Shown here piece after piece: positions 2,678-59,594 of a DNA stretch of 59,913 nt (position 1 is the stretch's first letter; each line of letters opens with the position of its first letter). The position numbers were made by a program, and so were the translations under genes. The notes beneath the pieces were generated by a model. The model was given only the letters and a program-made list of their open reading frames with translations, was not told the DNA's origin and made no database searches. Location of the stretch: the NCBI GenBank assembly GCA_030426085.1, contig JAUHYW010000068.1, positions 1-59,913 on the forward strand, in the 5' to 3' direction. Source of the DNA: a bacterium (GTDB taxonomy: Bacteria > Myxococcota_A > Bradymonadia > UBA7976 > UBA1532).

Positions 2678-5350
<2,673 letters not shown>

Positions 5351-21444: not shown

Positions 21445-23607
21445 CTAGCGGGCGCGGCCGGTGTAGCGCAGCTCGAGGCGGTAGGCGCCGGCCTCGTAGC
21501 CCAGCACGCCGACATAGAACTGACCCTCGCCGGTGAGCGCGCAGGTCTCGTCGGCGGGACCTTCGAGCCACGGTCGGCAGTCATGGGCGTCGGCCGTCGG
21601 CGGCTCGCCCCGGCGCACGTAGAGATCGACGTCCCCGGTCAGCCCGGTGATGGCCGCCCGCAGCTCGCCCCCGGTCACCTGAAACGGCCCGTAGCGCCGC
21701 CAGGCGTCCTTCTCGACCGCGCCTTCGAGGCTGACGACCTGAGGCCCGGGTGGCGGCTCCACCGGCGGCGGCGCGTCCTCGGGCGGCGGCAACCACGCCA
21801 GCGCGAGCTGGAACGCGGTCGCCTGATAGCCATAGACCGCCACGTAGACCTCGGCCCCCTCGACCCGGCACGTCTCGGCCGCCTGGCCCCCGGCCCACGG
21901 GCGGCAGTCGAAGTCATCGGCGGTCGGCGCGGCCCCGGCCCGGACGTAGAGATCCGCGTCCCCGGTGGCGTCGAGCGTCTGCAACGTCGCCTCGAGCGGC
22001 CCGCTGCCCACGCTGAACGGCCCGAAGTGGCGCCACTCGCGGGCCTCGACCCGGCCCATCATCGTGGCCATCGACGGCTCGGGCGGCGGCGGGGTCTCGG
22101 GCACCCTCAGCGACTCTTCGAGGATCGCGCGCACCACGCGCCACCGGATGCCGGTGTCGGCCCGCTCCACGTCGACGTCGACGGTGTAGCTCGAGGCGGG
22201 CGCGAAGCCTCGGGCGTAGGCGAAGACCCGGGTCTGCCCCTCGGGCACGACGAGGGTGCAGGTCTCTTCCGTGCCGGTGAGCACCGGCCGGCAGTCGTGG
22301 CGCGAGAGCCACGGGCGGCTGCCGAAGCGTACGTAGAGATCGGCGTCGCCGTCGCCCTTCATCGCGACGTGCACCCGCTCGCCGGCGACCACGTCCCACC
22401 GGCCCAGATCGGCCCACGCGTTCTCGGCGACGGCCCCGGTCACCGTGGCCAGCCGATCCCGCCGCCGGGCGACCTCGGTGTCTTCCTTCACGATCGGGCG
22501 CCACAAGAAGTCGGGGTGGTTGCGCTTGCTGTCCCCCACCCACTCCCCGCCGATGATGCGCCCCTCGCCGTCGAGCTCGAGCACGTAGGCGTAACGATCG
22601 GTGCCGGTGTAGTCGTCGATGTGATCGGCGAGGTGCCCGTCCTCGCCCTGGTGCGACTCGAAGATGTATTGCAGGTCCATCTCGACGTGGCGGAAGGCCA
22701 CCGCCTCGGCGTTGAACCGATACGGCGCCTCGGCCGGCGCCCCGACGAGCGCGTTGGCCTGCGCCGCGTCGACCGCCTCGTCCCGGGTGATCCGATAGCC
22801 CCGGATGGGCTGATTCCACACCTCGTAGTCGTAGGTCCGATCCTCGACGAGCGCCTCGGCCCGCAGGCCGAGCAGGTTGGTGATGACGATGTGGAAGCTG
22901 CCGGCGTTGGTGTCGGCGCAGCCGGCGTCGGCCTCGACCGGGCGCCCGAACGCATCGTAGGCGACCCCGCCCTCCCCGGCGGCGGTCTTGTCGCAGCGCA
23001 GGGCCATCACCTTCTGGGGCAGCCCCTCGTCGTAGGACAGCGTCACCAGCGCCTTGATGTCGTTGATCCGGAACTCGACCCCGTCGCGGACCACCGCCCG
23101 CCGGGGCTCGGCCTCGACCACCGCCGCCGGGCCCCAGGCGTGGCAGATGCCGAACCAGGTCTCGATGCACCGCCCCTCGGACGCGCCCCGCCGCCGGGCG
23201 CACGTCTCGCCCTTGGCGGCGTCGCACGCGCTGTCCTCGGTGCACGGGGTGGCGTCGGGCAGGCTGTCGATGCCGTAGGCCGCCGAGATCTGATCGGGCA
23301 GGCCGGGGCGATCGAAGGCCTCGGCGTACTTCTCGGCCGGGGAGCGGCTCTCGGGCCCGGCCCAGCGGTCGTTGAGGCTGTCGAGGTGCGTCGGCCAGTA
23401 GCTGCCGGCCCACGGGATGCGGGCCGCCTCCCCCTGCGCCGGCAGCATCGCGTGGCGGGTCTCCATCGCGTCGTCGAGCAGGATCTCGGGCCGGTCTTCG
23501 GGGCCCCAGGCGATGGGGGCCCGGCGATCACGGGTCTCGGGCGGGGGCTCGGGCGCGGCGCAGGCGATCAGCGCCAGCGCGATGCCCGGGGCAGTGGCTC
23601 GGAGCAT
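21445..23607 (-). CDS. Transglutaminase-elicitor family lipoprotein with PPC-like domains
   Basis: 720 residues. The ATG at 23607 gives a lipoprotein signal (ALALIAC); ATGs further upstream would add non-signal residues. Residues about 60-400 match the transglutaminase elicitor family first known from Phytophthora and also found in bacteria. Recognisable parts are the nucleophile region ETWFGICHAWGPAAVV (Cys155, His156) and the downstream EMDLQYIFESHQGED, LADHIDDYTGTDRYAYVLEL and WVGDSKRNHPDFLW, which would supply the His/Asp side of the active site. Three PPC-like domains follow (each with DADLYVR or DVDLYVR and a CRPW or CRPV Cys). Such enzymes cross-link Gln and Lys side chains. Export and lipid anchoring imply action on extracellular or cell-wall proteins. 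Confidence 0.85.
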   Translation of the reverse strand: MLRATAPGIALALIACAAPEPPPETRDRRAPIAWGPEDRPEILLDDAMETRHAMLPAQGEAARIPWAGSYWPTHLDSLNDRWAGPESRSPAEKYAEAFDRPGLPDQISAAYGIDSLPDATPCTEDSACDAAKGETCARRRGASEGRCIETWFGICHAWGPAAVVEAEPRRAVVRDGVEFRINDIKALVTLSYDEGLPQKVMALRCDKTAAGEGGVAYDAFGRPVEADAGCADTNAGSFHIVITNLLGLRAEALVEDRTYDYEVWNQPIRGYRITRDEAVDAAQANALVGAPAEAPYRFNAEAVAFRHVEMDLQYIFESHQGEDGHLADHIDDYTGTDRYAYVLELDGEGRIIGGEWVGDSKRNHPDFLWRPIVKEDTEVARRRDRLATVTGAVAENAWADLGRWDVVAGERVHVAMKGDGDADLYVRFGSRPWLSRHDCRPVLTGTEETCTLVVPEGQTRVFAYARGFAPASSYTVDVDVERADTGIRWRVVRAILEESLRVPETPPPPEPSMATMMGRVEAREWRHFGPFSVGSGPLEATLQTLDATGDADLYVRAGAAPTADDFDCRPWAGGQAAETCRVEGAEVYVAVYGYQATAFQLALAWLPPPEDAPPPVEPPPGPQVVSLEGAVEKDAWRRYGPFQVTGGELRAAITGLTGDVDLYVRRGEPPTADAHDCRPWLEGPADETCALTGEGQFYVGVLGYEAGAYRLELRYTGRAR

Positions 23608-23711: not shown

Positions 23712-23799
23712 GAACTCCGGGCCACGCGACCATGCACGGTGAGGTCGCCGTCGAATACCCCCGGATGGATCCGACGACGGGCCACGGGACCCGGAGTTC
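23712..23799. repeat. Hairpin repeat element, copy 1
   Basis: Outer arms GAACTCCGGG (23712-23721) and CCCGGAGTTC (23790-23799) pair perfectly. The loop contains GCACGGTGAGGTC followed by CCGTCGA and a CCCCCGG...CCGACGA segment shared with copy 2. Confidence 0.7.
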
Positions 23800-23810
23800 G
23801 AGAGGTATAC

Positions 23811-23888
23811 GCGACCGGAGCCGGGTTTGCGCACGGTGAGGTCACCGTCGATCCCCCGGTGGACCGACGATGTCCCGGCCCCGGTCGC
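23811..23888. repeat. Hairpin repeat element, copy 2
   Basis: Arms GCGACCGGAGCCGGG (23811-23825) and CCCGGCCCCGGTCGC (23874-23888) pair with one mismatch. The loop starts TTTGCGCACGGTGAGGTC and continues with the CCGTCGA...CCGACGA block also seen in copy 1. Confidence 0.75.
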
Positions 23889-23924
23889 GCAGTCTGTTGG
23901 CGGCGTACCGCCGAAGCTGAGGGT

Positions 23925-23971
23925 GCGATCGGGGCCGGGTTTGCGCACGGTGAGGTCCCGGCCCCGATCGC
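23925..23971. repeat. Hairpin repeat element, copy 3 (short form)
   Basis: Perfect 15-bp arms GCGATCGGGGCCGGG (23925-23939) and CCCGGCCCCGATCGC (23957-23971) around a 17-base loop that keeps the TTTGCGCACGGTGAGG core. It lacks the middle block of copy 2. One stem pair that is C-G in copy 2 is T-A here, a compensatory change. Confidence 0.8.
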
Positions 23972-24131
23972 GAGAGTTCGTGTGAGCCGAAGCGCCCCGT
24001 CGCGGGGCCGTCGTTCAGCGTCGATTCACTGACACCTCCCGACTCACGCCCCAAATGCTCAGCAACGACCGTGCCACACCGACGCGGCGCGTCAAATTGG
24101 GCTGGAGCCCCGGTTCTTCCTCAAAATCGGA

Positions 24132-24162
24132 GACATTATCGTCGTATCACGACGATAATGTC
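24132..24162. promoter_or_regulatory. Perfect AT-rich palindrome, candidate operator
   Basis: Two 14-base arms, GACATTATCGTCGT (24132-24145) and ACGACGATAATGTC (24149-24162), flank a three-base centre. It is a perfect inverted repeat, much richer in A/T than its surroundings, and lies 196 bases upstream of the cytochrome lipoprotein start. A dimeric regulator site is the simplest reading. No T-run follows, which argues against a terminator. Confidence 0.6.
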
Positions 24163-24358: not shown

Positions 24359-25093
24359 ATGCGAGGATGGATGAGGCTGCTGCCCGTAGGGCTCGCGCTG
24401 GCGATGTTCGGCTGCGACGACGGGGGCGATGACGCCGAAGCGGACGCGGGCGCCGCGGCGGCGAACCTGTACTACGACGGCGCGGAGTCGGCCCAGCTCG
24501 GGGCCGACGGCAACGAGGCCCGCTGCGCGACCTGCCACAGCAACGACGGCACCGCGATGTCGGGCGCGACGCTGATGGACATCGCCTACCGCACGTCGTT
24601 CAAGGGCGGCGACGCGGCGACGCTGCTCGACGCGACCAACGCCTGCGTCACCGGCTGGATGGGCGGCGAGGCGCTGACGGCCGACGACGCGGCCTGGGCC
24701 GAGCTCGAGGGCTACATGCAGTCGATCTCGGACGCGGCGGTGACCGATCCCAACCCGCTCGCGCCCGAGGTGCTCGAGAACGAGGCGGCCTACGCGGCGA
24801 AGTACGCCGGCGGGGACGCGGCGGCCGGCGAGGCGCCCTACACCGAGATGTGCGGGCTGTGCCACGACACGATGCTCACGGTGAACAACTTCCCGTCGTA
24901 CAACCTGACGACGCTGGTGGCGTTCAGCGAGGGCCGCATCGCCCAGAAGGTCCGCACCGCCGGCCCGCCGCCCTCGGGCACGGCCGACGCGATGGACAGC
25001 ACCCCCGGCCCGATGCCGTTCTTCGAGCCCTCGGACCTGTCGGACGACGACCTGCGCAACATCATCGCCTACATCAAGTCGCAGGGCAGTTGA
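24359..25093 (+). CDS. Dihaem c-type cytochrome lipoprotein
   Basis: 244 residues. The ATG at 24359 has a purine-rich GAGAGGGAGA just upstream and opens a lipoprotein signal (LALAMFGC); an in-frame ATG at 24338 is possible. Two haem-binding motifs are present, C56-A-T-C-H60 and C165-G-L-C-H169, each followed by a Met-containing segment (SGATLMD, PGPMPFF) that could give the second iron ligand. The two halves look like two cytochrome c domains. Likely a periplasmic electron carrier tethered to a membrane; partners are unknown. The next gene starts within its stop codon, so it is the first gene of a coupled operon. Confidence 0.9.
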   Translation: MRGWMRLLPVGLALAMFGCDDGGDDAEADAGAAAANLYYDGAESAQLGADGNEARCATCHSNDGTAMSGATLMDIAYRTSFKGGDAATLLDATNACVTGWMGGEALTADDAAWAELEGYMQSISDAAVTDPNPLAPEVLENEAAYAAKYAGGDAAAGEAPYTEMCGLCHDTMLTVNNFPSYNLTTLVAFSEGRIAQKVRTAGPPPSGTADAMDSTPGPMPFFEPSDLSDDDLRNIIAYIKSQGS

Positions 25094-50092: not shown

Positions 50093-50122
50093 TTGACGCC
50101 GGGCGAGGCGGGTGATGCTATC
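50093..50122 (+). promoter_or_regulatory. Candidate promoter of the phosphoesterase-SLOG gene
   Basis: TTGACG (50093-50098) and GCTATC (50117-50122) are 18 bases apart, the latter preceded by TGAT. They lie 26 bases before the ATG at 50148. Suggests the gene is transcribed on its own and not with the glycosyltransferases. Confidence 0.4.
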
Positions 50123-50147
50123 GGCCTCCGAGCACAGGAGCCCTGAC

Positions 50148-52049
50148 ATGACCCCCGCCGACCCATCCGACCCCCGGCATCGAGAGCTGGGGTGGATCCA
50201 CCTGACCGATCTGCACGCCGGCCAGCCCAAGGAGGGCGGGCGGGTGCCCGAGATCGAAGCGGCGCTGATCGACGACCTGCGGCGGATGGTCGCCGGCGAC
50301 CCGGGCCGGCCGCCGCTGTGGATCGACGTGGTCTTCTTCACCGGCGACATCGCCTTCAAAGGCATCGCCGAAGAGTTCGGCCGGGCCACGGCGATGCTGG
50401 GGCGGGTCCTCGGCCGGATCCGCAAGCTGAACACCGAAGCCGGCGCGCCCGAGGCCCGCCGCACGCCGCTGCTGGTCCCGGTGCCCGGCAACCACGATCT
50501 GGCCCGCCCGAGCCGAGCCGTCGCCGGGCAGATCCGGGCGGCCTTCGCCGGGCGGACCGACAACGCGCCCGCGCTGTGGAGCGGCCTCACCCAGCCGGTC
50601 CGGCCGCTGGTCGAGGCCTGCTTCGCCGACTACATGGCGTGGCTCGATCACCCCCTGCCCTTCCCCAAAAAAAGGTCAAAGGGCATCGTGCCCGGCGACA
50701 TGGCATGCACCATCAACCGGGGTGGCGTGCGGCTGGGCGTGGTGGGCCTCAACTCGGCCTACCTGCACCTCGACGACGCCGGGGAAGGCACGCAACACAT
50801 CGACCGCTCGCAGTTCGAAGCGCTCGTCCGCAACGGGCGCAGCTTCGCCGAGCGGCACGACGTCACCGTGCTGATGACCCATCACCCGCCCGAGAGCCTC
50901 AGCGACACCGGCCGCGCGGTGCTCTCGCAAGGCATCCTGCGCACGATCGACCTGCACCTCTACGGCCACGCCCACGTCGGGGGGCACGTCGCGACGCCCG
51001 GCGCGCACGGCGTGCGCCACGGGTTTCTGGGCCGATCGCTCTTCGGCGCCGAAGAGGACGGCTTCGACCGGCTGCACGGCTACACCGCCGGCCGGGTGTG
51101 GCTCGATCGGGCTGGCGACGAACCGACGCCGATCGTCGACGCTTGGACCCGCCCCGGCTGGCGATGCGGCCACACCTGGGTCTTCGGGCCGATCCGGCCG
51201 GCGACCGGGCAGTGGAGCACCCGCATCGCGCTCGAGCCGAAGGCCCCGCCGGGGCCCGTGCCGCCAGCCCCCACGATCGCGGCGCTGGCCGATGGGCTGG
51301 GCGATCATCAGCGCCTCCCGACGTGGCCCGCTTTCGACGAGCTGGCCACCGCGCTGAGCCTCGGGACCGCACCAAAGACCCGCAAGAAGTGGCTCTTCCT
51401 CTCGGCCAGCGTCCCCGGAGACAGGGCCGACCGCGCCGTGAAGCCCGGCGACATGCCCTACGTGCGGACCGCCCGACCGAAGGTGATCGAGCAGACCCTC
51501 GTCGCCCTCGCCCGCAAGCTCGCGGCGTCCGACACCGGCCTGCTCTTCGCCGGCGCGCCCAGCGTCACCCGCCGCCTCGCGCCGGTGCTGCTCGAAGCGC
51601 ACGAGTCGGCCCCGTGGGTCATCCTGCTGCAAGCCGAGTGGTTCCAGGACCGACTCATCGAAGAGGTCCCGGTCGTCGCCGCCCTCGACGACGTGATCTG
51701 CGCCCGCTGGCAGGCCGGCGCCGACGAAGACGACATCCTCGGCCAGATGCGGAAGGCGCTGGCCGGCTTCCCCGGCCTCGTCGGCTCGGTCTACATCGGG
51801 GGCAAAGGCGGCATCAAAGACGAGTTCGACGCCTTCGGCGACACCTGCCCCGACCTGCCCCGACTCGCCCTGGGCCTCGGCGGCGGCGCGGCGGCCGACC
51901 TGCTGCTCGACCCGAAGACCGAAGCCGCCGCCCACGGCGCGGTCACCACCGGCGACCACCCCCGAGGCGCCCTCCCCCGCCCCGGCCGCCTGTGGCACAC
52001 CCCCGAGGCCGCCGTCGACGCGATCTGCGAACACTTCGCCATCGAGTAG
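50148..52049 (+). CDS. Calcineurin-like phosphoesterase fused to a SLOG-like nucleotide-binding domain
   Basis: 633 residues; the ATG at 50148 follows AGGAG (50136-50140). Residues about 14-330 carry every metallophosphoesterase motif: D21-x-H23 in HLTDLHAGQ, D67 in FFTGDIAF, N115-H116 in PGNHD, H245 in MTHHPP and H274/H276 in YGHAHVGG. After a Pro-rich linker, residues about 412-625 resemble SLOG-type (LOG/DprA-related) domains: KWLFLSASVPGD at the start, the central LLFAGAPSVTRRLAPVLLEA, and the late VYIGGKGGIKDEFDAFGD and ALGLGGGAAADLLL. SLOG domains are predicted to bind or process nucleotide signals in bacterial conflict systems. No signal peptide, so it is cytoplasmic. A seven-A tract occurs within the gene (50668-50674). 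Confidence 0.85.
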   Translation: MTPADPSDPRHRELGWIHLTDLHAGQPKEGGRVPEIEAALIDDLRRMVAGDPGRPPLWIDVVFFTGDIAFKGIAEEFGRATAMLGRVLGRIRKLNTEAGAPEARRTPLLVPVPGNHDLARPSRAVAGQIRAAFAGRTDNAPALWSGLTQPVRPLVEACFADYMAWLDHPLPFPKKRSKGIVPGDMACTINRGGVRLGVVGLNSAYLHLDDAGEGTQHIDRSQFEALVRNGRSFAERHDVTVLMTHHPPESLSDTGRAVLSQGILRTIDLHLYGHAHVGGHVATPGAHGVRHGFLGRSLFGAEEDGFDRLHGYTAGRVWLDRAGDEPTPIVDAWTRPGWRCGHTWVFGPIRPATGQWSTRIALEPKAPPGPVPPAPTIAALADGLGDHQRLPTWPAFDELATALSLGTAPKTRKKWLFLSASVPGDRADRAVKPGDMPYVRTARPKVIEQTLVALARKLAASDTGLLFAGAPSVTRRLAPVLLEAHESAPWVILLQAEWFQDRLIEEVPVVAALDDVICARWQAGADEDDILGQMRKALAGFPGLVGSVYIGGKGGIKDEFDAFGDTCPDLPRLALGLGGGAAADLLLDPKTEAAAHGAVTTGDHPRGALPRPGRLWHTPEAAVDAICEHFAIE

Positions 52050-58519: not shown

Positions 58520-59594
58520 CCGGGGGCCGACGGCGGCGGCGTCGGGCCCGGCCCGCTCACCCCGCCCGCCCCGCCGGGCGACGTCGAGCGCCCGCCGAGG
58601 GGTCGGGCGGGTCGCGCCCTCGGCCGCAAGGCCTCGGCGCGGGGTCTCGCTCGAGTCGGGGGCGGGGTGAACGCCTCGGCGAGGGGTCCTCATCGGGTCG
58701 GGGGCGGCGTGAACGCCTCGGCGGAGGGCCCTCATCGGGTCGGGGGTGGCGTGAACGCCTCGGCGAGGGGTCCCGACCGAGTCGGGGTCCAGCGTGAAGA
58801 CCTCACCGAGGCCTCCCAGTTGAGTCGGGGGTCAGCGTGAAGGCCTCGTCGAGGCCTCCCGACCGAGTCGGGGTCCAGCGTGAAGGCCTCGTCGAGGCCT
58901 CCCGACCGAGTCGGGGTTCAGCGTGAAGACCTCGTCGAGGGGGTCCCGACCGAGTCGGGGCCCAGCGTGAAGGCCTCGTCGAGGCCTCCCGACCGAGTCG
59001 GGGTTCAGCGTGAAGGCCTCGTCGAGGCCTCCCGACCGAGTCGGGGTCCAGCGTGAAGACCTCATCGAGGGGGTCCCGACCGAGTCGGGGTCCAGCGTGA
59101 AGACCTCGTCGAGGCCTCCCGACCGAGTCGGGGTCCAGCGTGAAGACCTCGTCGAGGCCTCCCGACCGAGTCGGGGTCCAGCGTGAAGACCTCGTCGAGG
59201 GGGCCCCGACCGAGTCAGGGCCCAGCGTGCAGGCCTCGTCGAGGCCTCCCGACCGAGTCGGGGTCCAGCGTGAAGACCTCGTCGAGGGGGTCCCGACCGA
59301 GTCGGGGCCCAGCGTGAAGGGCTCGCCGAGGCCTCCCGACCGAGTCGGGGTCCAGCGTGAAGACCTCGTCGAGGGGGTCCCGACCGAGTCGGGGTCCAGC
59401 GTGAAGACCTCACCGAGGCCTCCCGACCGAGTTGGGGGCCAGTGTGATGACCTCGCCGAGGGGGGCATCACCGAATCCACCCCAGCGTGATGCCCTCGGC
59501 GAGAGATCGCGACGGAGTCCGCCCCAGCGGGTCGGACGCACCGAGGGGTCATCCCCGACTCGGCCAGGCCGTGTCAGGCGCGTCGAGGGCGTCC
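58520..59594. other. Gene-free stretch dominated by the tandem repeat array
   Basis: About 1.07 kb without a gene. 58520-58626 shows nothing definite, 58627-59525 is the tandem repeat array, and 59526-59594 shows nothing definite. Long open frames run through it on both strands only because the 42-44 bp unit lacks stop codons. Confidence 0.75.
58627..59525. repeat. Tandem array of about twenty 42-44 bp hairpin-forming repeats
   Basis: The unit contains CCCGACCGAGTCGGG (6-bp stem, 3-base loop), then CAGCGTGAAG, then a second hairpin around CCTCGTCGAGG. Two subtypes occur. In one, GGCCTC faces GAGGCC (43 bp); in the other, GACCTC usually faces GAGGGGGTC (44 bp). Central copies are nearly identical and end copies are degenerate, the normal signature of growth by unequal exchange. 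Units abut directly without spacers. Because 43 and 44 are not multiples of three the array cannot encode a regular protein repeat. Confidence 0.9.

Follow-up and report, generated by a model that had tools for sequence, protein, structure and literature searches.

A conserved array of hairpins with an invariant loop motif, probably a sigma-54-dependent regulatory RNA, in a genus of the Bradymonadia

The window, a 59,913-nt stretch of a bacterium of the class Bradymonadia, contains three adjacent inverted repeats, found by repeat search, between a lipoprotein-like gene and a cytochrome-c-like gene (Table 1). The three elements (W1, W2 and W3, corresponding to copies 1, 2 and 3) have a common core, GCACGGTGAGGTC, that starts at positions 23734, 23831 and 23945, and different stems, as reported in a preliminary description made from the sequence alone. 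The longer middle block that this description had noticed in copies 1 and 2, and found absent from copy 3, constitutes the inner hairpin of the minus-strand fold, and the compensatory change of one stem pair from C-G to T-A between copies 2 and 3 is present on both arms (GCGACCGG../..CCGGTCGC versus GCGATCGG../..CCGATCGC). Minus-strand folding of copies 1, 2 and 3 gave z values of −4.0, −5.6 and −5.6, respectively, against dinucleotide shuffles, and the two long copies fold better on the minus than on the plus strand.

Table 1. Coordinates of the hairpin elements, of the predicted control sequences and of other features of the window.
Feature	Coordinates	Strand	Description
Hexamer tandem arrays	1–172 and 2809–2950		GGGCGA units
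Lipoprotein-like gene	21448–23607	−	720 aa; PF16683 (transglutaminase-elicitor) and three PPC domains (Pfam)
Element 1 (W1, long form)	23712–23799	−	20-bp outer stem; inner hairpin 23746–23779; motif CUCACCGUGC at 23734–23743
Inverted repeat 1	23712–23731/23780–23799		20-nt arms, 80% complementary
Element 2 (W2, long form)	23809–23890	−	16–17-bp outer stem; inner hairpin 23843–23872; single-stranded motif CUCACCGUGCGCAA at 23827–23840
Inverted repeat 2	23810–23825/23874–23889		16-nt arms, 94% complementary
Element 3 (W3, short form)	23925–23971	−	17-nt loop containing CUCACCGUGCGCAA on a 15-bp stem; nearest to the promoter
Inverted repeat 3	23925–23939/23957–23971		15-nt arms, 100% complementary
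Sigma-54-type promoter	24061–24076	−	TGGCACGGTCGTTGCT; exact match to the consensus; identical at the sister locus
Conserved block	24077–24096	−	TTTGACGCGNNGCGTCGG; directly upstream of the promoter; in both genomes of the genus
Palindrome	24132–24162	.	GACATTATCGTCGT-N3-ACGACGATAATGTC; 14-bp arms; about −82 to −112 from the predicted start
Cytochrome-c-like gene	24359–25090		adjoins the array on the side away from the lipoprotein-like gene
Phosphoesterase-like protein	50112–52046		calcineurin-like phosphoesterase and SLOG cluster3 domains
Tandem array of about 43-bp units	58652–59464		about 16 copies; two short palindromes per unit (CCCGACCGAGTCGGG, GGCCTCGTCGAGGCC)

The lipoprotein-like gene begins 105 nt after the last hairpin, and a 78% identical ortholog was found only at the corresponding locus of the sister genome described below; the distance is 105–125 nt in both species. 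The next gene encodes a lipoprotein that may be a metalloprotease, on the basis of a weak Pfam match that stays below its cut-off. Paralogs of this PF16683/PPC gene recur through the family. The stretch with the cytochrome-c-like gene has no match at the sister locus. Towards the end of the window, the tandem array of about 43-bp units is dispersed, unlike the hairpin array, with nine matches in this genome and six in the same-genus genome; none appeared in 16 other relatives searched.

A second genome of the same genus (G001) contains five homologous elements, E1 to E5 (C5:19997–20461), at a locus syntenic with the window. W1 corresponds to E1, W2 to E2–E4 and the short W3 to the short E5, with the short form nearest to the promoter in both species. 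Since the short form has an equal position in both, it did not arise by a recent deletion such as had been suggested for copy 3, between GTC repeats; an older deletion is possible. E3 and E4 are young duplicates, spacers included, and are identical over a 76-nt match except for two compensated outer-stem pairs. Trained on five long elements, a covariance model recovered the other three (W1, W3 and E5), in each case on the minus strand, with 44.9 bits for element 1 (E 3e-4 over the whole genome) and 31.1 bits for element 3, and scored element 2 at 80.8 bits. The relatives of the downstream gene in the rest of the family are partial paralogs, which offered no further syntenic locus for comparison; the conservation described here is that of one species pair and of paralogous copies, in the only two genomes that carry the array.

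Comparison of the elements indicates that their stems are kept for pairing, not for sequence. In an alignment of the eight elements 95.1% of the cells were paired; fitting this alignment to the covariance model biases it in favour of structure, but the slid controls and the raw stems lead to the same conclusion. Two-sided changes occurred in 11 of 26 pairs, as against 5.0 ± 1.5 in shuffles, none of which (0/500) reached 11, and sliding the registers by 1–3 columns left only 0–2 pairs with such changes. The 14-bp outer stems of E3 and E4 differ by exactly two compensated pairs, and W1 and E1 have a common inner block, but their 20-bp outer stems are for the most part different and yet almost completely paired in each. 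The preliminary view that pairing itself is conserved thus extends to the elements of the sister genome, and the loss of pairing in related strains that was to count against it was not observed. Among outer-stem pairs that are not Watson-Crick on the minus strand there were 11 G-U, no A-C and one other mismatch, the 11:0 count including pairs common by descent and representing perhaps 7–9 independent events. This asymmetry suggests that the selected molecule is probably a minus-strand RNA.

Long GC-rich palindromes are known to mutate by template switching, and the array might be an old tandem duplication of palindromes without function, the arms of which are kept alike by this quasipalindrome correction in a way that mimics compensation. 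Such a process would create two-sided changes like those between E3 and E4, but it would not be expected to favour G-U over A-C on one of the strands, and 11:0 was seen (strand-biased deamination could add to this count), and we consider it unlikely. A device working at the DNA level, in which a recombinase or a replication protein would recognise cruciforms or single-stranded hairpins, would agree with the perfect GC-rich palindromes and their repeated core. We regard it nevertheless as very unlikely, in view of the one-strand tolerance of G-U, which points to RNA, of the promoter directly upstream of the array, and of the lack of any recombinase family among about 22 neighbouring proteins scanned. 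Moreover, the elements are conserved in the centre and vary at the ends, the reverse of integron attC sites.

The sequence CUCACCGUGC is invariant in all eight elements, and in seven of them it is followed by GCAA. In the long elements its place is 3′ of the inner hairpin, whereas in the short ones it constitutes the loop, and it was predicted to be 54–94% unpaired, compared with 33–36% for the whole leader; in the predicted fold of E2 it is partly paired. Part of the motif could, in the long elements, pair instead with one strand of the inner hairpin, the 3′ one (ACGGUG/CACCGU). However, the two short elements keep CUCACCGUGC without that strand, indicating that pairing within the element is not the sole reason for its conservation and that the motif has some other use. 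Correction of the arms by template switching does not explain an unpaired motif that is invariant in eight of eight elements. No target for the motif was found, the inspected genomic matches to its complement being all in coding frames. Core-like matches did exceed those of a reversed control (113 versus 25, and 352 versus 88), but those inspected lie in coding frames, where the motif spells L-T-V-R, so that the excess reflects codon usage, and these matches were rejected as targets. A protein-coding reading of the array was also discarded: the minus strand spells DLTVRK in parts, but the copies are in different frames, E3 and E4 carry one base more than E2, and in the window the GTG frame that follows the promoter comes to a stop after four codons. 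The array as a whole does not preserve a reading frame.

In its own genome (10.1 Mb in 178 contigs), the array had no other BLAST matches beyond short chance similarity, and the covariance model identified only the three elements plus one match at chance level. Both searches therefore returned the absence of further genomic copies that the preliminary description had set as grounds against its proposal. Among 57 genomes of the class and 379 of the phylum, the array was present only in the sister genome, besides one weak stray match (36.8 bits, in G299) that we took as chance because it is isolated, has imperfect stems and a G+C content of 0.79. Plasmids and phages gave no matches to the array, and three pattern matches in viral contigs were not matches to the model, and we thus rejected a viral, phage or plasmid origin. 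The pattern CGACGGYGN{1,5}CTCACCGTGCGC occurred in 119 stretches across unrelated GC-rich taxa, and model scores for 80 loci were at chance level, so that this pattern was uninformative. Comparison with Rfam 15 produced only three chance-level matches, the best with 25.2 bits against a gathering cut-off of 80.

From the hairpins and their core, the preliminary description had contemplated REP-like or miniature mobile elements as well as a family of structured RNAs. The array does have hairpin form and a common core, like REP/BIME sequences with their RAYT, but its identity as REP/BIME-like palindromes or miniature mobile elements is extremely unlikely. REP and BIME elements exist as many dispersed intergenic copies, whereas the array, with three copies in 10.1 Mb, occupies a single locus per genome, is syntenic in the sister, has strand-specific wobble pairs and lacks plasmid or phage matches; MITEs are dispersed with constant terminal repeats, whereas here the ends are variable and the locus is single. 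The matching transposase that had been suggested as a check was likewise not found: the Y1/RAYT family (PF01797) had no match in the genome and was detected in five of 14 control genomes; as the assembly is 95% complete, a copy in the missing part may have been overlooked. It is the structured-RNA part of the earlier reading that is favoured, by compensation, by the G-U asymmetry and by the conserved promoter.

This promoter, directly upstream of the array on the minus strand, is a perfect match (TGGCACG-N4-TTGCT) to the sigma-54 consensus of M. xanthus, TGGCACG-N4-TTGC(T/A) (PMC9765219), as in sigma-54-dependent transcripts, and transcription would start from it near position 24050. There are six exact consensus sites in this genome and seven in that of the sister, compared with none for the reversed pattern. 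Several other perfect motifs are closely followed, within about 80 nt, by a purine-rich stretch and an ATG, suggesting that this motif is a working promoter type in the genus. The block TTTGACGCGNNGCGTCGG is limited to the array locus, with no match, at up to three mismatches, in 11 other genomes of the family. Further upstream, where the two genomes were aligned apart from the array because their copy numbers differ, the palindrome is a candidate enhancer (bEBP) site; the minus-strand sequence TGTCCGACAT, near −110, overlaps it and is conserved in the sister genome, in which TTTGTCGG-type half sites recur. A scan of about 22 window proteins revealed no gene for a sigma-54 activator. Template switching does not account for the conservation of a sigma-54 promoter directed towards the array.

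We consider it reasonably probable that the array specifies a regulatory RNA with several hairpins that depends on sigma-54, be it a small RNA or the leader of the gene for the secreted lipoprotein. An enhancer-binding protein would act at the upstream palindrome, and the predicted minus-strand transcript, starting near 24050, would form a short hairpin and then two long ones (W3, W2 and W1) before reaching the lipoprotein start codon at 23607. Each hairpin would hold out a single-stranded CUCACCGUGC(GCAA), in a loop or in an internal bulge, and one partner, either an RNA-binding protein or a target RNA, may dock at the repeated motif; a transcript with several such hairpins could then act as a multi-site regulatory RNA. 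The array is presumably transcribed, and its RNA might function on its own as a small RNA, or it might be the long leader of the transglutaminase-elicitor lipoprotein gene, a possible target of cis control.

A narrower alternative is that the array is purely a cis-acting 5′ leader, controlling translation of the lipoprotein gene or stability of its mRNA and without a function in trans. The gene follows the last hairpin at a similar distance in both species, a scan for intrinsic terminators found none between array and gene, and, the cytochrome-c side being unmatched in the sister, only the downstream neighbour is kept. Nevertheless, the outer flank beyond the cytochrome-c side is also syntenic, so that linkage to the downstream gene is weak evidence. 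The leader would also be long (about 440 nt in the window, 725 nt in the sister), whereas at several other perfect sigma-54 motifs an ATG follows within some 80 nt, and a simple leader switch does not need a shift from three to five copies. A purely cis-acting leader is a possibility that we hold to be on the doubtful side.

A regulatory RNA of this kind would have its nearest counterparts in architecture, judging by the features compared, in the cuckoo RNAs of Rhizobiales and in CrcZ/CrcY. The cuckoo-type sRNAs (SmelA075/SmelA099) contain three to four tandem hairpins with one loop motif, the anti-Shine-Dalgarno sequence CCUCCUCCC, and diverged stems (PMC3927594). The array similarly has repeated hairpins with variable stems, but its eight loops all display CUCACCGUGC instead of CCUCCUCCC, and its long form has an extra inner hairpin. 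CrcZ and CrcY have a predicted sigma-54 promoter, an upstream activator site and six Hfq-binding motifs, and sequester protein (PMC6292655). The array resembles them in carrying several copies of one motif on a predicted transcript behind a sigma-54 motif, a likeness of architecture; their motifs are A-rich Hfq/Crc sites, which are absent from the array. Pxr of Myxococcus is an intergenic stem-loop RNA of about 108 nt with three distinct stem-loops, apparently transcribed from a sigma-54 promoter and adjoining the regulator gene nla19/pxrR; its tandem paralogs in Cystobacter each have their own promoter, and some have fewer stem-loops (PMC5568312, PMC5684412). The array is also intergenic, with stem-loops, a sigma-54 promoter motif and tandem copies, but one promoter precedes all its elements, and no NtrC-like regulator such as nla19/pxrR was found among about 22 window proteins. 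By the features tested, the array resembles cuckoo RNAs, CrcZ/Y and Pxr in architecture and is a member of none of these families.

We tentatively propose that the arrays are genus-restricted RNAs under sigma-54 control, in which CUCACCGUGCGCAA on interchangeable stems would titrate an RNA-binding partner, the copy number (three or five) setting the dose; the self-complementary UGCGCA of the motif might also let loops kiss one another. To our knowledge, few regulatory RNAs are known in this bacterial group. If our interpretation is correct, the array would be a structured RNA not described before, with a defined promoter; its stems would change quickly but keep their pairing, whereas the displayed motif and the sigma-54 promoter remain the same. 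It would also be a clear example of the gain and loss of copies in multi-copy regulatory RNAs, and its motif would offer a direct bait for finding the partner.
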